Below are positions 6,249 to 34,461 of a stretch of 34,612 nt of DNA, piece after piece. Made by a program: the position numbers and the translations under genes. How positions within the stretch are numbered: position 1 is the stretch's first letter; each line of letters starts with the position of its first letter. Source of the stretch: Ophryocystis elektroscirrha (lineage: Eukaryota > Apicomplexa > Conoidasida > Neogregarinorida > Ophryocystidae); NCBI GenBank assembly GCA_030141585.1, contig JAQIFP010000060.1, positions 1 to 34,612 of the forward strand. The letters run 5' to 3'. The notes under the pieces are model-generated. The model saw only the letters and a list, made by a program, of their open reading frames with translations. It ran no database searches and was not told where the DNA came from.

Positions 6249-9200
6249 TTATTTACGAGTTGTATGCATTCCACACATATAGTCTCGGTGTTTTGACCTA
6301 TGTGTATTTTGTCTCATTCTCATGTTATCGCAAGGTTCCATAATATAATCCTTTCTCTAGACACGCAAAAATTTAGACATTTGTTTTTCTAATTTAGATA
6401 TATATATTCTACTACATAGACATATAATAGATATATTAATAATTACACATTTTAATTAATAATTTTTACCATTCTAGAAGTTTGAGGAGTATTTCCATTA
6501 ATATCGTAGTATAGCTCGGACTGAATAATATTTATATATATTGATGGATACTTACTTGTTTGCATTTGCACACTTTTTTTTCTATGACTTTTGATAATGC
6601 AGCAGATAATCCTAGAATGGTTGCTTCTTGAGATTTGAGTTGTTTTACGTGTTCATTAATAACATCGTATAATCGTTCTATTTTTTTTCTTAAAACCTCA
6701 TTTTGTAACTATTAGAGAATTAGAAATTAAATATTTATTTTACGTAGAGCTCTTCTTCTTCTTTAGTATTAAAGTAATATACACTTTTCTACAAAAAAAA
6801 AGAGAAGTTTAGTATATTTATTACTACAGATATTATAATTATATATGTAGTAGTATGGAAACTTACCGTTCCGTGATTTGAGTCCTCATAATACATATCA
6901 TCTGAGGCAAATGTGTTGTATGATCTATTTTGAAAATTATCTCCGTAACTAGGTCGATGAGTTATATTGTCAGGTTTGATACGAAGTTTTGGTACAGTAG
7001 GGGGTCTTCTTCGAATGTCTTTATCACACCTTCGTCTATTCTCATGTGGGGTATTACGACTATGATCTTCATTCTCGTAATCATCATAGTCATATAGCTG
7101 TTCTGAGTTATACGTTTTGTCATCTGTGTAAGCGGTCTCTCTTTTAACCGTAAATTCCTCACTTGATGAAGAAAAGTTTTCTGTCAAGCGGTTTAAGGGT
7201 ATTTTAGGGTAATTATTATGCGGTTTATCACTATAGATCACTTCATTACGTAACCGATAAGTATCTCTACTAGTTTTTTTAGGTTGTTCGATAGACTGTA
7301 TTTTATCAAAATTCTTGATTTCCAGTATTTTGTGTGATTTATTGTTTTCAGACCTTTTTTCGTTACTAACAGGCAATTTATTGAATTTTCGGATATATGA
7401 CAATTGATGTGAAGTGTTTATTTTACTTAATTCTGTATTATCTACTGGATAGTTTGGTGTTATATCTCTTTCTATTTTTTTGACAGATATTTTATGAATA
7501 GTTTCTGTGTTTAGCATGTCTTTTTTCATGTTAGAAAACTGCTTGACATATGGTCTTAGGTCTTTATTAAATATATTTGGATTTACTGATTGTGTATCCA
7601 AAGAAGGCACTGTTATTACTGGTGTACACATTTCATTATCTGTATGTTTATATGTTAAAGATAATGTGTCTTCTGTTGAGTTCATAGATACTGATATGCT
7701 TGTTTTCTGTGTGTTTTTTAGTTTATACTTTTTCCACGCATCCGATATTAAATTTACCGAGCGTAGTAATTTACGATTAATATAGATTCTCCAGAAATAC
7801 TGTATTTGACGAGCAGCGCAATTCCGTGCTTTCATATACTCTGAAAATCCTTTTGCCATTCTTTGGCATTGATTTATGCCTTGTAATACACAAGCATAAT
7901 ATATTATTTGTCTGTAATATTTTCTACATAAAAATCCACGGATATGCTTTTGAATTTTTGTTGCAGAAACATTCCATAACTGCATTAACCTTGAATCTAT
8001 ATATTGTTGCAATTGTGTCTTCAAAAAAATTCGAGATTTACCCAATTGCCAATAATATTTATATTCTTTGATTTCTATGTTTTGATGTCGCGCAAAAGCA
8101 TCCGTTATATTACACATGAAATAAGAGATTAAGTCTCGAACTTTACTTAGTGGTTTTAACAGTTGATTATCCGAGCTAGGAAATAGCGACTCAATTATTG
8201 ATCTAAGAAGCATAAAAATTACATTGAAGTATATAAATTATTTTTATCACTTTAGTAATAACTACGACACTATTTAAACAATTAATATTTAATTAATAAT
8301 AATTAAATATTTATAGATTTGAAACTGTAAGCAAACACTTTGGTAATGCTTCTAATTTAAACTGTAAACTATAATTGAATATGCTTTGATTTGCAAATCA
8401 TATATATATAGGCTAATTCATTTTGCACAGAATAAACTACCTAAAGCGCTTGTAAAAATCGATTATATTGACCCGAATAGGATAGCCGCTTTTGCGTATA
8501 CGAATACTTTCAAGGACTCCCGCACATTTCAACTGGCGTAAAACATCCATACTATTAAACGATAAGCTAGCCTTATATGAGTTGGGTTTTATACATCTGA
8601 TGTAACTAGTAGTTGTAATTTCAAGAGTTTTTATTAAATCGTCAAGTTGATCGCGAAACGTAGCGCTTACACTAGTTTTAATAAAGCCTGGACGTCCAAA
8701 CGCTGCACTTGGTTTATCAGATAAATCAGGCTGTGAGAATATTTCACTTAAAACACAGTTTTTAGCTGTCTTTAAATAATTCATGACGTTTGGAAAAACC
8801 CTATCAGAATTTTTTTCTAAAAATCCTAAAGCTGAATAATATACAGGGCCTGCGTAATGATTGATACCAAATTGATTAGATCTTTTTATTATGGAGTTTG
8901 GTTTTATAAGAATTTTGTTATCAGAATCACGGGCAACACTGTATATTTTACCTAAAAGCGTTAAATCTGTAGATTTCGGTACAAGAGACTCGCAATCTAA
9001 CATTGGAAATACTCCATTTATGCGGTCCGTTAATGCAGCTATAATTTCTTGGTTATCCACAAAAGGTATGACAGTCCAATCTATGCCTTCTAAACTATAT
9101 AAATGTTGTTCTTCCTGAAATACATGTAAGTTGAACTGCTGCTGTAGCTGTTCATTGGCGAAATTTATACATAACTGTTCAAAGGAATTTATTTCAAATA

Positions 9201-11584
9201 CTTCAAAACCAAATATATCTAGTAATCCAATGGAGCTTTTATTATCGATTATGGTTCCTTGTTCATTTCGGGGATTGCTAACTTGAGCGACGCGGCTTTT
9301 CCTATTCCAAGGTGTAAAACGCTCTGGAAATGCAGAACTGTCTCCTCCTACTGTAATTCCTCCTCTTGAACTTTTGGGTGGTTTTGTTTTGCCGTTTGTT
9401 GGTGATTCAGAAATGAAAACTTTAGCTAATTCTTTATTGAGCTCAATAATTATCCATTGAAATAGTTTTTCATATATTGCCTTAATTATTGCGTCTCGTG
9501 CAGACTCAATGTCCACTTTATTTCTTGGTACTTTTATTTCTTCATTATTTTGAGCATCAGTTATATGTTTAAACTGTATTAAATCACACAACTCTTCAGG
9601 ATTTACACCGAATAAATCACATGCTATTTCAAAAGATTTTCTATTTCCTAGAGAATCCAAAATGTCCGTATTTTTATCTGCTTCTGGAATCACAACATTT
9701 CCCATGTGCAAAATTCCTGCTAGAATTTTTAATATTGATGCTTTTCCGTCAGAAAGGAATTTTAATTGATCAAAGCATTTTAATAATAATTTAAATTGTT
9801 CTACGTCGTCGACACCTACACACCGCAACAATGATTTCTATATAAACCCAAATATTTAGTATATTATGAATTTCTCGTGAAAAATTTGCTCGACAATTAT
9901 CAACATTCAATTATATAGACAAAGCATATTTACTAAGCGGACATATGCCTATATACCATACGTGTATAGTAGCAAATATTTGACTTTTTATAATGTTTCA
10001 CAATTCTATATATAATAAATGCACTTTAATTAATTATGTCTTCACATTTGAAGCATAAAGTTCATTATACAAAAAAATAATGAACTACTTAGTATATAAA
10101 TGAAGGTATATTATGAAGAATATTGGATTAAATATATGCAGAGATTATATTATTTATGTGATACATACCGTATATAGTAGTACAAGCTTTAGTGAAATTA
10201 AAAGTTTCAGGCGAGTCTAAGAATAATTGCGATCTTAAAGCAGGCTCAATTAAGTTAGAGCCATAGCAAAGTTGATAGAAAATATGATAATTGCGTTCAT
10301 CTTGTTGTTGTCCAACAATTCTTGACTTCTCGAGTAAATAATTTGTTACGGTAGCTCCAATTAAGTTGGGGGTCTCATTGGAAAAATAAACTTGTGTAAA
10401 CTTGCCGAAACGCGAAGAGTTGTCGTTGCGTATTGTTTTGGCGTTTCCAAAACATTCTAACAAATGATTAGAATTGGTCAATTTGTTTGTCATGTCTGCG
10501 AATACTCGCTGTTTTTTCCCCGTCCAGTTTGCTGTATATTTCTTAGATGTACTTGCTAAATATGCTAGAATTTTCTTAGTAGCCTCTGTTTTTCCAGCCC
10601 CACTTTCTCCAGATATTATAATGGACTGGTTATATTGGCATTCATACATTTGTTTTAAACAGTTTTGAGCTATGCGGTATATGTGAGGCTTTAAATTAAA
10701 ATCATCGAAATCGTGACTGTTTCTCTCCGCTACTACGTCAATTTTAGGAGTAAACTTAATTTTTAAACTAGGTAAAGAAGGTATCACAGATTGATAAATT
10801 TCTTGAGTTTCTTCTGAATATAAACTAGGCAAGTTTGTATATGGATTAACAGAAATCAATATTGGAGGTCCCACTGCGGTATATATTTCGCTTCGGTAAT
10901 ACCTTGTTCTTACAGTATGCAATAAAGGACCTATGTCAAACTGATTCATTGTTAATAAATCATCCACTCCTAGTAAACATTTTGGGTTTACATATGTTCT
11001 ATCTTTAATTGTTACTTTAAGCTGTTGCCCATCTTGTAATTCTATGAAATCTTTATTTAATTTATTATCATAACCCAGATAAAGAACTGGTTCAAAGCCT
11101 GTCTCTTCGTTTTCGTACCATAAATACTTGTAGTTTTTATCTTCTGCAGAGTTCGTAATGGACAATTCATTATCGGCGGAGAATCCCTCATATAAGCTTG
11201 AAACTATAAACAACAAATGAATTCAGTCTTTATTTGATGTATACGTAGCAATTTATTACTGAAATTTATTATATAATTAAATACTTTAATGCTTGTATTA
11301 TAAGTTTATTCGTATATATGTGTATAGTTGCCTATAAGCAGACACAAACCAAATAATCTAATGGTATAAATAAAGTTGCATTAAGTCATCTATATAAAAG
11401 CTAAGTATTTTCCATTTATTTTGCATATATGCAGATTGCATACTAGATATATCAGATCGCATGCGAATGCAAAGTTTTTAAACTGATATATATATTTTCA
11501 AACGTTTATTGGTATAAATGATTGAATACTTCAAAAAATTATACTATATTGCTGACAAAATGATACATATATATCAAATTGCAA

Positions 11585-12253: not shown

Positions 12254-17443
<5,190 letters not shown>

Positions 17444-25903: not shown

Positions 25904-26412
25904 ATGATGGAAAATCACAGTGGAAAAAGTAATTCACTGGCTGATTCGGACGAATTAGTTTCAATGAATTTGGACTCAAATTTTATTTATCATATTCAGA
26001 AAAATAATATCCCCAACTTATCCTGTAGTTTTATAGATAGTGAGCTATCTATAGACCCTTCAATGGACGAAGAGTACTATTTCCGACAAAATTATAAAAG
26101 AAGTCTGAGCAATCAAAAAGAAGTCAATCAAATAACGTTTTATGTAGAAGGAATTAATTGCAATAGTTGTTTTAAATTAGTTTTAACACATTTCGAGCAT
26201 TTTTTTGGCGTCCATCGAGTAGTTGTGAATTTGATTTATAATTATCTTACTTTCCAATACGACAAAACTATTGTACAAGGTATTTATACTTCTTTTAGTT
26301 TAAAATACATATACAAAAATAAAATACATAAAAATTGAGAATTATATGTATTGATAAATATTTTATTATATAATATATTTACGACATCTGTTTTTATCAT
26401 TCAAGAGTTATA

Positions 26413-26443
<31 letters not shown>

Positions 26444-27241
26444 ACTATGTATATCTTATATATGACATTCAGTAATACATTGGAGTTACTGGAGCATTTT
26501 ATAATAAGTGTTTTTTATTTATACGTGATAATAAAATCTATATAGTATAAGAATGGAGAATATATGCATACATTTGCCTTTATCAATTATACATGTATTT
26601 TATACAAGCGTATATATATATTCGCTTATAATCATAAAAACCTGTAGTCTTATTAATAAAATACAACTAAAAAAAACATCTATATAAGTAAAAACTTATA
26701 AATTTGATATTTATTGTCTTTGTTACATAAGAATAATACGCACTAAAATAAACTTGTTATAATGCGCTAGTTATTACAATACTCAATATTTATACAGTCC
26801 GTATGAAAAAATATACTTAAGTACATGACTTGTGTTCTCGTATATAATTGTTGCTGATAATCTTAAAAAAAAAAAACTTAATAATAGTTATATATATACT
26901 ATTATGGTTACCTAGAACGAAATAGTGATTTGATAGAGCAGGAATTAATTGATGAACTAAACCATCTTGGATTTCACAACTGCGAAGTGGTTCATGAGGA
27001 AATACAGGAAGACAGTACCCTAGATAATCACATTGTATGGCAAAGTGCTGCGCATATGTAAACTTGATGTGTATATATATGCACTCTTAGCGTGTCTCCT
27101 TATCAGTGTGAATATTTAGATTTAACAATCACTATATCTCCTCTTAATTCTGAGCAATTTGAAGCTTCAACTAATTATTTGATCGATACATTAGCCAATA
27201 AACCGGTATATTATATACTGCTTCAAAAGATGTACATATAC

Positions 27242-27285
<44 letters not shown>

Positions 27286-28518
27286 TTATAGGAATAATTT
27301 TGATAAAATCTATACGATAATACACCTATTTATAATTATCGTTAACATGCTAATTTCAAAATATAAAGCGTAAATTTCAATATATAAGATTAGTTGAATA
27401 TTTTGTAAAGTGTATAGCCAATATATAAGTTTAATAGGGAATTAAAAAAATACTGCGAAAAGAAAAATATATCCGTGTAATTTACTTTCCCAATAAAATC
27501 AAAGCGAGATATATTTTGTCTTTGCTGCAAGAAAATGGCTGTGAATGTAAACATACGTACAGTACAACTACATTCCAGCCTTGGGAAGTTCGTGAAACCA
27601 AAGAGAATCCTTCTACCTATTCCTCTGTTACCCTAAAGTTTTACTTAACATTGCTTTTTTTCATTATTTCCCTGACTATTGTTTGGCTACCAAATATACT
27701 AAATTTTCAATTCCATCAAATTCAGCATTGGTTGTCTATTATAATAAATCTTATCAGCTTATATGTATTCCAAGTGAATTTTTTCAAAATAGAGCTCAAA
27801 AATTTATCGTTTAAGCACTTGATGTATATAATTACCATTCTATGCAATATATGTGATATAATAACTGCTATTAATTATTATTTCTTTGATGAAAGTAAGA
27901 TATTTAATATTCATGATTTTCCATTAATTAATATTTATTGTTCATTTATAATACTTGTAATTAACTACTTTTCATAGTAAAGTCGATACCCATTTACATT
28001 AGTCATTAGATAGAACAGAAATTAATACATTTTATATATACACTGTATATGTTTATAACAATTAAGATCACTACGTTTGCTTCCAAATATTGAATTCTTT
28101 TATTTGATATACTTATTTTGATTACCATATTTATTTAACACATAATAAATAATAGCATAACCCAATATTACAGAATATTTGATATAATCTTTCCAACATA
28201 TATTACATATATATGTATCGCAAAAATATACACATATATATACATATATATATACATACGTTGAATATTTTATAATTTTATTAAACATTAACAAATATAC
28301 GTTTTGAATTTGTGTTATTATTTATTAATAAAAATATTGTTAATACTATATATATTTATATATATTATTTAAATTAATATATATATATATATATATATAT
28401 AATAAGCTTTACATAGAAATTACTATTAATATTTATTAATATAATTTAAATTAATATATATATATATATAATAAGCTTTACATAGAAATTACTATTAATA
28501 TTTATTAATATAATTTAA

Positions 28519-28560
<42 letters not shown>

Positions 28561-31500
28561 TGGTCAGGAAGCGAAGGGTTTATTGCGTTATCTACTCCAG
28601 GACTTACTCTAATATATATATCTATTTGGGCTTCAGAATTGTTAAAAATGCAGCTTTTGTATAAAGCAGCGTACACATTCAATAATTTCCAGAAGTCTGA
28701 TATTGAAGTACCCAAATATTATCCCGTTATTTTGAACCGAAATTTACTTTTACTTACCGGAGATGAAATTTACGAAAAGTCTTTTTTCTCTTCAACAGAC
28801 TGTGATCCTAAGCTCTGGTATCAAATGTTGAACTTGGAATCAATTTCGAATCAAACTGATTTGATAGCTATCGACGTACACGAACAACTTCTTCAACTAG
28901 GAGACACAATCCGTCTTCAAACAGGCCAAATACTGCCCGTAGACGGAGTTCTTCTTGAAACGCATGTAATATTTATTTCCAGCAAAACTTATCACTTTAA
29001 TTCATAGAATCAGACAATTTATTAAATATAAAATATGTAATATATATACTATTTATATAATTATTAAATTTCGATATGTACAAATTTTGTTTGTAAAATG
29101 TATACATTGAATTTTGTTACTTTTATTAGGAAGAGGCATCCCGAGATAATGCACAAAAACCATTCAATATGTTCAGTAAACCCCTTGTTTCTCAGTCAAA
29201 TTCGAAATTGTTGATAGCTCATTCGGGAGATATAATTTTGTCTGGTTCAACTAATTTGGGACCTCCTGTTACTATACGAATTGTTAATTTACCGAATAGC
29301 GCTACTGCAAACCAATTAAAGAAATTTAGCTTTGAAATAGCAAAAAATAAAAAATCATGTTTTGTAGAACCTTTTTTCAACCAAAAATTATTCAAGTAAT
29401 TATTAAAAACAGTTTTATATCATTCTAATCTATACACTTTATTAAATAGTAATTAAATTATTAAATTTTGTATTGAAATTATGCTTATTTTAATTTTATA
29501 TATAAAAATATCTATACATATATATATACATATCTATACATATATATATACATATATATATACATATATATATACATTTATATATACATATACTTATACA
29601 TATTTATGTACATAAACATATATATATACATATACACATATATATACATATACATATATACATACATATACATATATATATATATATATATATGTATATT
29701 ACATTATTAAATTTAAAAGATTTTATAAAAGAAAAAAAAATTATACAATGTATATTGGATAAAAATAAAGTTTTACAGTTTGCATAGTATATATAATTGC
29801 TTATTTAGGTTATATGAGTTTATTGTATTATGGAATATATTTCTAATATTTTTTGTTATACTAGCGATTTGCTTATTTTTAAATTTTCCTTACATGAGTA
29901 AGAACATACTTAGCTGAAAGAAAACCTGCAGGTCTCAATCAGAAAATAAACATCTTTTTCGCGACTCTATCTAAATTTCTGATGTCTTTTTTCAACATAG
30001 GCTTTGGTCTATCCTTAGGGATTGCTGTCAATGCTGTATACCGAACATTTATAAAAAAAAAAATATACATGAAAGATCCATTTCGTGGAATCCAGCTAAT
30101 ATCTGAAAGCACGCACGTAGTACTAGAAAAAGGTAATTTAAACCAAGTACTAAACTATATTATATTATAGTTTAATTATATATTTCTTTTTTATTTTCAT
30201 TATACAGAAAATATATATATTAGTTTCTCACACTAAATGTATATAGTAAATAATTATAGCATGAATATATCATTATGGGTTATATATATGTATATATATA
30301 TTATTTTTCGAATTTACAGTGAGCTTCATTTTATTAATATTATGAATTCAACATTACGGCAAAATTATACAAATATGTTATTTTATACTAGTGTTTTTCG
30401 GCAAATAGATATCATCTTAGACACTATCATGTAACAAACTAGATAATAATTATTTTACATCCGAATTCATTATAAACTTTTAATGTATACTGTGTAAAAT
30501 ATATATATAATAATTATATTAGTTAGGGTATAGAGAATTAAAAAAAAAAAAAAAAAAAAATCTATACAAAAAATCTTTATAATGTATATCTTTTTAGAAG
30601 GTGTTCTGACAGATGCATTACAGCTAAAGCATGTCTGCTTAATTCCAAAAGCATTTGATAAAGCGAATTTAAGTAATGAACTGTACAATTTACGAGATAT
30701 AAACTTTAACTATGAGAAAAACCCTTCTTTTCAATCAAGCATTAGCAATAATAATTTATGCGAACCAATATATCCTCTTGAACTTTCTGAAAACCAAATT
30801 TTGATAAGCATACCACTGCCAGTTGATCTACCAGAAAAGTCTGTATTCGCCAATAACAACATCATATCTCAAATGGTCTCCAAAAATTTGAATAAATATA
30901 AAAAAATTCTGTCCATTACTGAATCTATAGAAAAATCCAAAAAAGATTCAGTTTTTAGTCCTCTTCTTTATTATAACGATAAGTCATTTTTGGAAAACCC
31001 ACAAAACTCAAGTAATCCCTCTCATGGATCATATTTCGGAATAACTTCAAGACCCGATAAATCCACCAGTAATAATTTTTAGAGTATACATCGAAATACT
31101 TAGATTATTTTAACATTATATATATAATTAGTTTAATACATATAGTTTGCAATTATTATCTACCTTATTATAACACGATAATTTATATAAATATTATAAT
31201 TAATTTCTACATATTATATTATAAATAAATAAATGTATATATATATATATATATATAGTTGAAAATAAATGGTTTTATTTTGTATGAATGTATATTAGTG
31301 TAATCAATATATATGTATATATATATATGATGGTTGCAGATAATAAAACGAATAATACGACTCGTTTGTTTATCGTTGAGCGTCGAAGGTCCTCGTCAAA
31401 TTATTTGACTGTAGCAGATGAAACTGCTAATTTTTCTCGGTTTCATACGCTAGATACAAGCTGGATAATGGGTCCAAAAACAACAATAACAAATATAAAT

Positions 31501-33719
31501 GAAAACAAAGAGATTAACACAGAAAATATGCTTAACTTGGCAAACATAAATAACCTCACATATTGGGATTTATTAAGGTTTTTCTATTTTTGTATGTGGT
31601 CTGTATATTCCATTCACCCCAGTGTTATATTTGATGCTTTAAGTAGCTACCTCTCAAAATGTCCAGATGTCCCCAATTTTGTATACCCGTATAAATACAC
31701 AATTGAACTAGATAATGAGTTGACTTTTGACATTAATGATACACATATTTCTTTGTCAACATTACCATGTAGTAAAATAGACAAAACAACTTCTCATGTA
31801 AAATCATTATCGGAAAATGTGGGTAATACTGACGAATCTACACTTTTACGAGTACATTCTTATGATCAATATGAGAAACTCCTTTCTTTTGAAAAGCCAT
31901 TGATAAAAGCACAGTCTTTCGATCTAAATAAAATTCGCAATAATTTGTACCACATAAATATTACACCAAGGAAACACAGAAACACCCGTAATTATGCATA
32001 TTCTCAGCCTGGTAATTTGACCATAGTAGATATAATAGAGGCTCGAAAAACTCTTAATTCCGCTGTCAATCCACAGCATCTTTTTAATAAGTTGAATGTT
32101 AGTGCTAAGCAGTTTAGCGACGCCCAATGTTATTGCACAATACCGTGTACCTGTAAAATAGACCAAAGAGCATTTACTGGTCTTGCTTTGGGATCTGGTA
32201 CTATGCGACTTTCTATTGCAATAAATACCCCTTATTTTGATGAACTTCAAAGGTTTTGTACTCCCTTTTATTACTCTGGACATACAATTATTTGTTTGAA
32301 TGCTAATAATATGTGCATAGGTAACTTTTCATAATAAAATTTCTTGAAATTATTAAGAATTATTTTAAATTAGTGATTATTCATATAATACTAATTAATC
32401 GTCTACTTATAAAAACTATAAATATTTCTTTACGTAACAAAACGCTATAAATATAGAAAATATATTTAACGCTATCATATATTTTCTATTTATATATACA
32501 ATATAATAAATTTGATTTATTGCTTTATTTAGGATGTGCTATTTTCCAAAACAACCTCAAATTACGGGCGTTTGAGCTCATAACGTATTTAAGGTACAGA
32601 TTTAAAGAAGTTTGGCTATCTAGTTGTAAGAGCTTGACTTGTTTTGAAGTTTTCAGCCGCTGACTTCTTTACTGATCAAGCAATAGTAGCGTCTCTCAAA
32701 ATTCCGTTAAATAATATTATTTGTAAAGCAAGTGCGAGAGAAAAAGTTAACTTTGTTCATAGTTTGTCCAGTTCTTCTCCTAAAGGTATGAATTCAGTGT
32801 ACTATTAGCTTAATTACGTAAATCTATCTTTCACATGTAAAAATTATATTATTTTTTTAAACTAATATATTAATAATTCATACCATCAATATATATATTG
32901 ACTTAATATCTGATCATTTATCAATATACATATATATATGTATATATAAATATGTATAATCAATTAAGCATATATAAATATGTATATATAGATTTATATA
33001 TATTAATATATATAGATTTGTAAGTATACATGTATGAATATTTATTTATACTTATACAGACCTAAAGAATTAAATATATATATATATAGATATGTATATG
33101 TTGATTTATATATATTAGTATATATAAATATGTATGTATACTTATATAGACCTGTGGAATTATTTATATATAATTAATTATGTATATATAAATATGTATA
33201 CACAAATTTTTATTTATAAGTATACTTCTTCATAAATTGTAATATCATTTTATCGTAACTTAGAAAGAAATTACTACTTTTGGTTTTATAGTAATAATTT
33301 GCACTGTAACAAGTTCTGAGTATAACTTGTTGAATTTTACTGCGGATTTGTCGATTTGTTTCTATAATAAGACCTTAAATTCTCTAAAAACGGTCATAGG
33401 CTCAGATATAATCATCAATAAAAGTCCAAAGGAGTAAGAGTTTCGCTTCGATTTATTTAGCTTCTCTATTAGTTTGAAAGATCTTGAAATTCTTTTTCGA
33501 ATGATAACATACTTCGAAAAAATATACTTTCGGAATTTGAAAGTATCTTTGCTTTCTTCAATGTTATGCTGGATAATTTTGGGCTATTTGTGTTTGAATT
33601 ACGACATATACAAATTATGGAATCCATCAAATCAAATAATGTGGCAAATTTTTGAGGCTACTGTGATTTTTTTGGCTGTTATTATATCGAATAATTCTTT
33701 ATATACCCAATTATATTAA
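25904..33719 (+). CDS. P1B (copper-type) ATPase relative lacking catalytic motifs, 1359 aa, 14 exons
   Basis: Exons: 25904-26279, 26916-27034, 27107-27205, 27438-27894, 28568-28965, 29130-29395, 29809-29897, 29932-30132, 30598-31068, 31340-32320, 32533-32625, 32657-32785, 33292-33433 and 33461-33719 (4080 nt). The layout is that of a heavy-metal pump: an HMA domain with GINCNSC (Cys 86 and 89), two degenerate HMA-like segments, membrane helices near 264-284, 296-313, 326-347 and 352-375, an actuator domain with [16 protein letters not shown], two helices (573-636), P and N domains, and two final helices. The N-domain keeps an HP pair (918-919). Yet CPC is FGL (626-628), DKTGTLT is EKEGVLT (667-673), TGE is about NMF (496-498), and GDGVND is TVTSSE (1231-1236). 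Such a protein should not form the phosphoenzyme. A role as metal-binding scaffold or pump partner is inferred. An intact frame over 14 exons argues against a dead pseudogene. Confidence 0.85.
26280..26915 (+). other. P1B-relative intron 1
   Basis: A 636-nt AT-rich intron directly after the first HMA domain, with a short (TA)n at about 26418-26442. Nothing else was recognised. Confidence 0.8.
27895..28567 (+). repeat. P1B-relative intron 4 with a 69-bp tandem repeat
   Basis: A 673-nt intron with a GTAAGA donor. From about 28401 a unit containing AATAAGCTTTACATAGAAAT occurs twice, 69 bp apart (28401 and 28470). Each copy is followed by ATTTATTAATATAATTTAAA and a (TA)n of different length. The rest is AT-rich and empty. 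Confidence 0.88.
29396..29808 (+). repeat. P1B-relative intron 6 with CATATATATATA repeats
   Basis: A 413-nt intron whose centre (about 29510-29697) is an imperfect array of ACATATATATATACAT-type units ending in pure (TA)n. No gene was seen. Confidence 0.85.
30133..30597 (+). other. P1B-relative intron 8 with an A20 run
   Basis: A 465-nt intron that splits the codon right after the degenerate phosphorylation-site lysine. A run of about 20 A lies at 30541-30560, only 38 bases before the acceptor. A 65-residue frame (30237-30434) inside it does not fit the flanking phases. Confidence 0.75.
32786..33291 (+). repeat. P1B-relative intron 12 with a diverged duplication
   Basis: A 506-nt intron. 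Two diverged copies of a segment of roughly 100 bp follow each other (about 32990-33170). Both contain GATTTATATATATTA and end in a TATACTTATA(C/T)AGACCT-like block. Imperfect TATATAAATATGTATA units surround them. Confidence 0.65.
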
Positions 33720-34061: not shown

Positions 34062-34273
34062 ATGTCGGACCTGTTAGGTAAGGACAATATGGATTTTTTA
34101 GTTCTTCCAATACCTTCCGTATGATTATTACATATATACAATTAAACGACAGGAATGTGTGGGAAGAATTATTGGGAAGCAGGGTTTTCAAATTAAATCC
34201 CTTAGAGGCCAATCCAAGTGTAATATCACAATAGATACCACTCAATCAGACCAACCTGTCGCTAGAATACGTG
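34062..34273 (+). CDS. KH-domain RNA-binding protein, 5' part only
   Basis: Two exons are visible: 34062-34118 and 34153-34273, separated by a 34-nt intron (34119-34152, GTATGA to GACAG). They code a start MSDLLG, a first strand FLVLPIPS, and then ECVGRIIGKQGFQIKSLRG, the hallmark of a type I KH domain with an intact G-x-x-G loop as GKQG. The next part (CNITIDTT, PVARIR) fits the second and third strands. A GTAATT donor at 34274 opens an intron that runs to the window edge and contains (TA)n, so the third helix and everything beyond are missing here. It probably binds single-stranded RNA. The family cannot be narrowed from this fragment. It is unrelated in arrangement to the KH gene at 2883. 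Confidence 0.82.
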
Positions 34274-34461
34274 GTAATTAATTAATTTGTTGTATATGGT
34301 TAAGGTTCTTATAATTTTTATACATAGTTTCTATGTAATCATTATTAAATCAATAATGATTCTTAATTAATAATTATAATTATTATTATAATTATAATTA
34401 TTTTTAAACTTTAAAACTCATAATCTTCTAATACGTTTAATTATATAGTACTTATATAATA

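Follow-up and report, generated by a model that had tools for sequence, protein, structure and literature searches.

A probable pseudoenzyme of the P1B-type copper ATPases in Ophryocystis elektroscirrha, encoded in the same genome as one motif-intact paralogue

A gene at positions 25904-33719 on the plus strand of Ophryocystis elektroscirrha contig JAQIFP010000060.1 probably encodes, judging from its sequence, a full-length P1B-ATPase relative without catalysis (a pseudoenzyme), beside one motif-intact P1B paralogue. The sequence analysed, called the window here, was the entire contig (C74; 34612 bases, guanine-plus-cytosine (GC) content 26%) of an 8.0-Mb genome in 118 contigs; the paralogue was encoded on contig C20. 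P-type ATPases are a textbook case of invariant catalytic motifs. The whole proposal, in which the pseudoenzyme acts as a membrane-anchored copper-binding partner of the C20 paralogue, seems to us evenly balanced between right and wrong.

The signature catalytic motifs were altered, in agreement with the initial annotation. Pairwise alignment and hmmalign both placed FGL (30003-30011, exon-internal) at the CPC of helix 6 and EKEGV at DKTGT (30126-30605, plus strand, with an intron at 30133-30597 inside the site). In EKEGV, the K, the G and the following LT were retained, the phosphorylation aspartate was replaced by glutamate, and the E and K were internal to exon 8. By both methods TGDN was replaced by SSAD, with SSA at the exon 11/12 junction (32622-32661, plus strand, spanning a 31-nucleotide (nt) intron that was included in the intron survey). 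TGES was paired with VSQS (29187-29198, exon-internal) in the pairwise alignment only, hmmalign having left this stretch unplaced, and the apparent E-to-Q change comes from that one alignment. Neither the protein nor any of the six frames contained GDGxND; the residues replacing it could not be named, as the stretch does not align. A six-frame search of 25904-33719 found no DKTG, CPC, TGE or GDGxND, and its sole TGD, at 28756, fell after helix 4 and before the A domain. As a control from the window, a SERCA calcium pump spliced by the same rules retained DKTGT, TGE, TGD and GDGVND.

The CxxC of the first HMA domain (HMA1) was retained as CNSC, in the context GINCNSC (26159-26170, plus strand), as was the PVDG of the A domain. 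With hmmalign, SIHP (31609-31620) was set opposite the SEHP found in P1B N domains; the pairwise alignment had a z score of 0.1 there, and the chance expectation by composition was about 0.1 SxHP and one HP dipeptide. The N-domain region also contained a CxCx3CxC cysteine cluster (32128-32154) that was absent from the paralogue. This cluster was rejected as proof of metal binding, being too weak: 61 of 5000 shuffles reached four cysteines in nine residues, and a similar cluster occurs in SERCA. Another CxxC, CNIC, was located within predicted helix 3 (27816-27872) and may be due to chance.

Homology was assessed with a P1B profile built from 41 of the 120 P1B matches listed and the C20 paralogue. 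The 1359-amino-acid (aa) protein scored 69.4 bits on this profile, compared with at most 3.5 bits in a set of 400 shuffles, of which 217 were reported. Residues 251-1359, with the HMA region removed, scored 22.1 bits compared with a maximum of 4.1 in 400 shuffles. On the profile of SERCA, the sole other class compared, the score was -3.1. On this sequence evidence the gene is a very diverged descendant of P1B-type (copper) ATPases, and the profile check bears out the descent first proposed. Some searches used the protein of a 4113-nt draft model (with two 16-nt introns) instead of the 4080-nt model. With this draft protein, an earlier set of 400 shuffles reached a maximum of 9.9 bits on the P1B profile, NCBIfam TIGR01525 matched at 1.1e-9 (37.7 bits, far under the curated cut-off of 346.25), Pfam E1-E2_ATPase matched at 5e-6 (slightly under the cut-off), and the top PDB matches were Menkes HMA domains (E 0.0016). 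Among 121 P1B targets, the best BLAST match was P0053 (1230 aa, source jgi; 1.9e-9, residues 62-481, 19% identity); the C20 paralogue gave a weaker E of 0.026. Six-frame family searches of the genome returned 16 TIGR01525, 8 PF00122 and 4 PF00702 matches, none of them at 25904-33719. Because these searches did not detect the gene, it would be easily overlooked in annotation.

Each segment of the protein was aligned to the C20 paralogue and to 300 shuffles. HMA1 (z score 8.8), the A domain (4.6), transmembrane helices (TM) 5-6 with the adjoining P domain (TM5-6-P; 3.5, a score of 17 compared with a shuffle maximum of 14.5) and the late N to P region (7.4) were above shuffles, with identities of 21-29%. 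The second HMA region (HMA2; 1.6), TM1-4 (1.9), the HP segment (0.1), the hinge (-1.2) and TM7-8 (0.6) were not, and TM1-4, the hinge, TM7-8 and most of the A domain were left unplaced by hmmalign. Hydropathy gave eight helices, four before the A domain, two after it and two at the end, with no other segment above the cut; the same cut applied to the paralogue gave its eight helices and two extra segments. The 4+2+2 layout is thus a prediction from hydropathy alone. The complete domain order with eight membrane helices that had been described was recovered by alignment in part: HMA1, the A domain, TM5-6-P and late N-P align above shuffles; TM1-4, the HP segment, the hinge, TM7-8 and HMA2 do not.

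Columns conserved in at least 90% of 41 P1B proteins were considered near-invariant and were counted in nine segments with hmmalign, unaligned columns being counted as lost. HMA1 was the best conserved segment, with 5 of 6 columns kept; CPC was changed at each of its three residues, and DKTGT at its D and both T. Fewer columns were kept in the HP segment (3/7), late N-P (5/15), TM5-6-P (8/38), the A domain (5/33) and the hinge (1/19), and none in TM1-4 and TM7-8 (0/48). The N domain also carried a long insertion (aa ~685-895). A single-sequence structure prediction of exon 10 was uninformative (predicted local distance difference test score (pLDDT) 32.5). When the whole protein was aligned globally with nine others in MAFFT, the N and P domains were misaligned, and this alignment was not used.

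The frame was open across the exons. In frame 0 the sole stop among 1350 whole codons was the terminal one; the other frames had 120 stops in 1354 and 134 in 1348. When the coding sequence of the C20 paralogue was drifted to 25% identity by random substitutions without indels, at least 40 stops arose in 50 of 50 runs. Codon usage correlated with that of the paralogue (0.94) and of SERCA (0.90), a similarity to which shared AT-richness contributes. None of 7994 scored candidates was a relative at E <= 1e-3 in a search with the draft protein, which reaches only relatives sharing exact words. Exon 10 had no second copy in the genome, and in a comparison with viral contigs two stretches fitted a pattern and neither was confirmed. 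The initial annotation raised the prospect of a long-lived gene; these searches found no orthologue, and the sign of persistence is limited to a frame that is open despite deep divergence.

The spliced model had 14 exons and 13 introns, all GT-AG and phase-keeping, and a coding sequence of 4080 nt with a single, terminal stop; this length equals the one first annotated. GC content was 32% in the exons and 17% in the introns. All exons are on the plus strand. Exon 1 (25904-26279) carries the start of HMA1 with the CNSC, exon 2 (26916-27034) the end of HMA1, exon 3 (27107-27205) the putative degenerate HMA2, and exon 4 (27438-27894) the remainder of HMA2 and predicted helices 1-3. Exon 5 (28568-28965) contains predicted helix 4 and the start of the actuator (A) domain with PVDG, as placed by hydropathy and hmmalign, and exon 6 (29130-29395) contains actuator domain assigned by pairwise alignment only. 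Predicted helix 5 is in exon 7 (29809-29897), and predicted helix 6, FGL and the EK of EKEGV are in exon 8 (29932-30132), the start of which depends on the choice of a 34-nt intron. Exon 9 (30598-31068) begins the P domain and continues into the long N-domain insertion, and exon 10 (31340-32320) covers the N-domain region with SIHP and the cysteine cluster. The second part of the P domain as far as the TGD site is in exon 11 (32533-32625), followed by P domain placed by pairwise alignment in exon 12 (32657-32785). Exon 13 (33292-33433) is at the position expected for the GDGxND hinge, where the motif is absent and the sequence is not alignable. Exon 14 (33461-33719) encodes predicted helices 7-8, recognised by hydropathy, and the stop.

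Intron lengths were surveyed in 172 kb of the genome (the window, L021, L023 and L024-L043) as strong-motif candidates joining open frames, with a reversed-motif control. The candidates, which are unproven, peaked at 31-35 nt (15 compared with 2 in the control), and such short candidates coexisted with long, AT-rich introns that extend over hundreds of nt. The 31-nt intron at 32626-32656 was one of these candidates. Its choice increased the P1B profile score from 64.7 to 69.4 bits, the whole gain being near the TGD site, and with it the stretch that starts at EVWL, crosses the TGD site and ends with exon 12 aligned gap-free to the paralogue. The 34-nt intron at 29898-29931 was chosen by length class and by its match to the 4080-nt total of the earlier reading. 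The 16-nt introns of the 4113-nt alternative (29898-29913 and 32641-32656) were rejected on the length class of the filtered survey, the unfiltered survey being too noisy.

The initial annotation had suggested searching the genome for a normal P1B-ATPase. One paralogue exceeded the TIGR01525 cut-off (C20, complement 43034-38496, 8 exons, 1102 aa), with CPC, TGES, DKTGT, TGD, GDGIND and GITCAAC intact. Its N domain has no HP and reads STHL. Its relatives among the 120 matches listed had 25-35% identity over part of the length, and 4116 of 7999 scored candidates passed 1e-10. The two proteins have in common an HMA1 with a degenerate HMA2 region behind it and, in the A domain, a phase-0 intron shortly downstream of ADG/VDG. 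They differ in that the paralogue has CPC, TGES, DKTGT, TGD and GDGIND, and the blocks that align above shuffles are only 21-29% identical. A recent duplication from the paralogue was considered and is unsupported: the paralogue ranked 50 at full length among the 121 P1B targets, and by segment 23 (HMA1), 10 (HMA2), 89 (TM1-4), 85 (A domain), 103 (TM5-6-P), 19 (HP), 2 (late N-P) and 66 (C end). By these sequence comparisons it is no closer to the divergent protein than many other P1B pumps. Regarding other copper-handling proteins, a PF00403 search of the genome gave one HMA match, belonging to the paralogue, with the HMA of the divergent protein below threshold. A Ctr-type copper-importer fragment was present at C10:1716-1880 on the minus strand (28.8 bits, over the Pfam cut-off). 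A genome search for COX17 gave no match, and its controls also gave none.

Other genes were present in the window. The SERCA gene (12254-17443, minus strand) had 10 exons, 1036 aa, all motifs and introns of 32-666 nt. Its product was 62% identical to its best match; those matches that carry names come from apicomplexans, gregarines, dinoflagellates and Chromera. A 33-row tree, built from the query and 32 proteins chosen among the 120 matches listed, grouped it with P0121 and P0122 with support of 100/99 and did not settle its deeper placement. On this basis the host would be an alveolate, probably related to apicomplexans. A myosin was encoded at 6789-11222 on the minus strand, with a motor domain at 10128-11222 (Pfam 9.2e-73) and an IQ motif at 6789-8237. 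A KH domain at 34102-34278 on the plus strand (Pfam 2.3e-07) seems to belong to the opening part of a gene that lies close to the end of the contig.

Motif loss and HMA1 retention together suggest what the protein may do. Catalytic motifs are linked to the phosphoenzyme cycle, and CPC to the copper path, by an established P1B mechanism (PMC10973460). Because the aspartate, TGE, TGD and GDGxND are gone, a phosphoenzyme cycle is not expected and no phosphoenzyme would be formed; because CPC is gone, the copper route across the membrane would be lost, and copper would not pass. The HMA head would still bind Cu(I). Since HMA1 is the best kept part, the most economical role would be to bind Cu(I) and present it at the membrane, and our guess is that such a membrane-anchored partner may hold, sense or pass copper to the C20 paralogue. 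In pumps, the HMA closest to the core serves structurally, together with the A domain, and the HMA beyond it may bring copper to the pump (PMC10973460). By analogy, the order of a CxxC HMA followed by a degenerate HMA, found in both proteins, would fit that layout. This specific copper-partner role is possible rather than probable. Its narrower form, a membrane copper donor or copper-sensing regulator of one true pump that replaces a soluble Atx1-type chaperone, appears unlikely.

Several observations weigh against a pseudoenzyme with a copper-partner role. Only 27 of the 166 near-invariant P1B columns were kept, compared with 123 of 166 in the paralogue; the loss is therefore general, beyond catalysis, and the earlier statement that the fold was kept goes further than this. 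The last quarter of the protein does not align and matches by hydropathy only. On the P1B profile the protein scored below SERCA (161.8 bits), the paralogue scoring 863.9; by score it is more distant from P1B pumps than SERCA, yet it has no match to the SERCA profile. The period-3 GC signal (36/31/29%) was weaker than that of SERCA (45/37/28%), and the relatives search gave no orthologue. In the gene model, the acceptor of the 34-nt intron (CTGCAG) fails the survey filter, the profile score does not probe this choice, and the 27-nt intron before exon 14 is unusually short and is the least certain junction. Retention of the CxxC could be inertia, and the link between the two proteins is a proposal of ours. 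The absence of further HMA proteins is a weak indication, because the exon-by-exon search missed the HMA of this very gene.

The same data can be read in other ways. The P1B scaffold may have been recruited for non-copper work, such as passive transport, signalling, or interaction with lipids or proteins, with the CxxC as a leftover. Loss of the membrane metal path (CPC to FGL), the small number of columns kept, the long insertion and a C end diverged past alignment are consistent with such a change, and P-type folds are known to serve other proteins, as in the degenerate ATPase domain of PfGCbeta (PMC6592433). The best conserved part is nevertheless the metal-binding HMA1, and we consider this account somewhat unlikely. 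Nucleotide sensing, in which ATP binds the N domain and sets the conformation without hydrolysis, would draw on the SIHP placed opposite SEHP, given the low SxHP expectation and a motif-intact paralogue that itself has no HP. The shuffle-like pairwise alignment at this site, the single HP dipeptide expected by composition and the uninformative exon 10 fold argue against it, making it very unlikely.

A pseudogene, young or slowly decaying and with its frame intact by chance, would agree with the loss of catalytic motifs and of most conserved columns, the weaker period-3 signal, and the missing orthologue and transcript as proof of function. Against this stand the absence of internal stops, when every drift run acquired them, usable splice sites in 13 of 13 introns and the predicted 4+2+2 helices, and a pseudogene is quite unlikely. 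An artefact of the gene model, with the motifs present in nature and lost through wrong exon choice or assembly error, is suggested by the two wrong introns of the 4113-nt draft, the short 27-nt intron and a 34-nt intron beyond the homology check. It is hardly credible, given the six-frame search without any of the motifs, the exon-internal positions of FGL, E-K and VSQS, and the motif-retaining SERCA.

A catalytically inactive P1B relative thus remains our reading of the gene: full-length and without the motifs, with an open frame, a predicted helix layout and a putative copper-binding head, beside a motif-intact copy. If this is true, it could be used to test which copper-pump parts serve without ATP. 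Among P-type-like proteins, TMEM94 (ERMA) offers a parallel, which we take not to be a P1B ATPase. TMEM94 is likewise without TGES, and one cryo-EM study observed no phosphorylation cycle, its authors leaving autoinhibition possible (PMC12134183); this status is disputed by a report arguing that it is an ATPase (PMC13322241). Apicomplexan guanylate cyclases, PfGCbeta above all, share with our protein an alveolate P-type ATPase fold, in their case an N-terminal P4-ATPase-like domain. They differ in being of the P4 (lipid) type and cyclase-fused, whereas the protein described here is P1B-like and stand-alone; in addition, PfGCalpha requires its conserved Asp, and not all guanylate-cyclase ATPase domains are dead (PMC6592433 and PMC7858053). 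Because examples of degenerate P-type ATPase domains have been published, for PfGCbeta and, with dispute, for TMEM94 (PMC6592433, PMC12134183), the earlier description of a new kind of protein was overstated. A limited search of open-licence PMC titles and abstract openings found no account of a stand-alone P1B-ATPase that is dead.

The closest known systems are the P1B-1 ATPases (CopA, ATP7A/B, plant HMA4, Plasmodium CuTP and Cryptosporidium CpATPase2); among apicomplexans, copper ATPases are on record for Plasmodium (PMC4016742) and Cryptosporidium (PMC3308323). In contrast to these pumps, the protein of O. elektroscirrha is without CPC, DKTGT, TGES, TGD and GDGxND, its C-terminal quarter is unalignable and its N domain carries a long insertion. 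In common with them, it has an N-terminal CxxC HMA, a predicted 4+2+2 helix layout, ordered A, P and N regions, and a match to the P1B profile.

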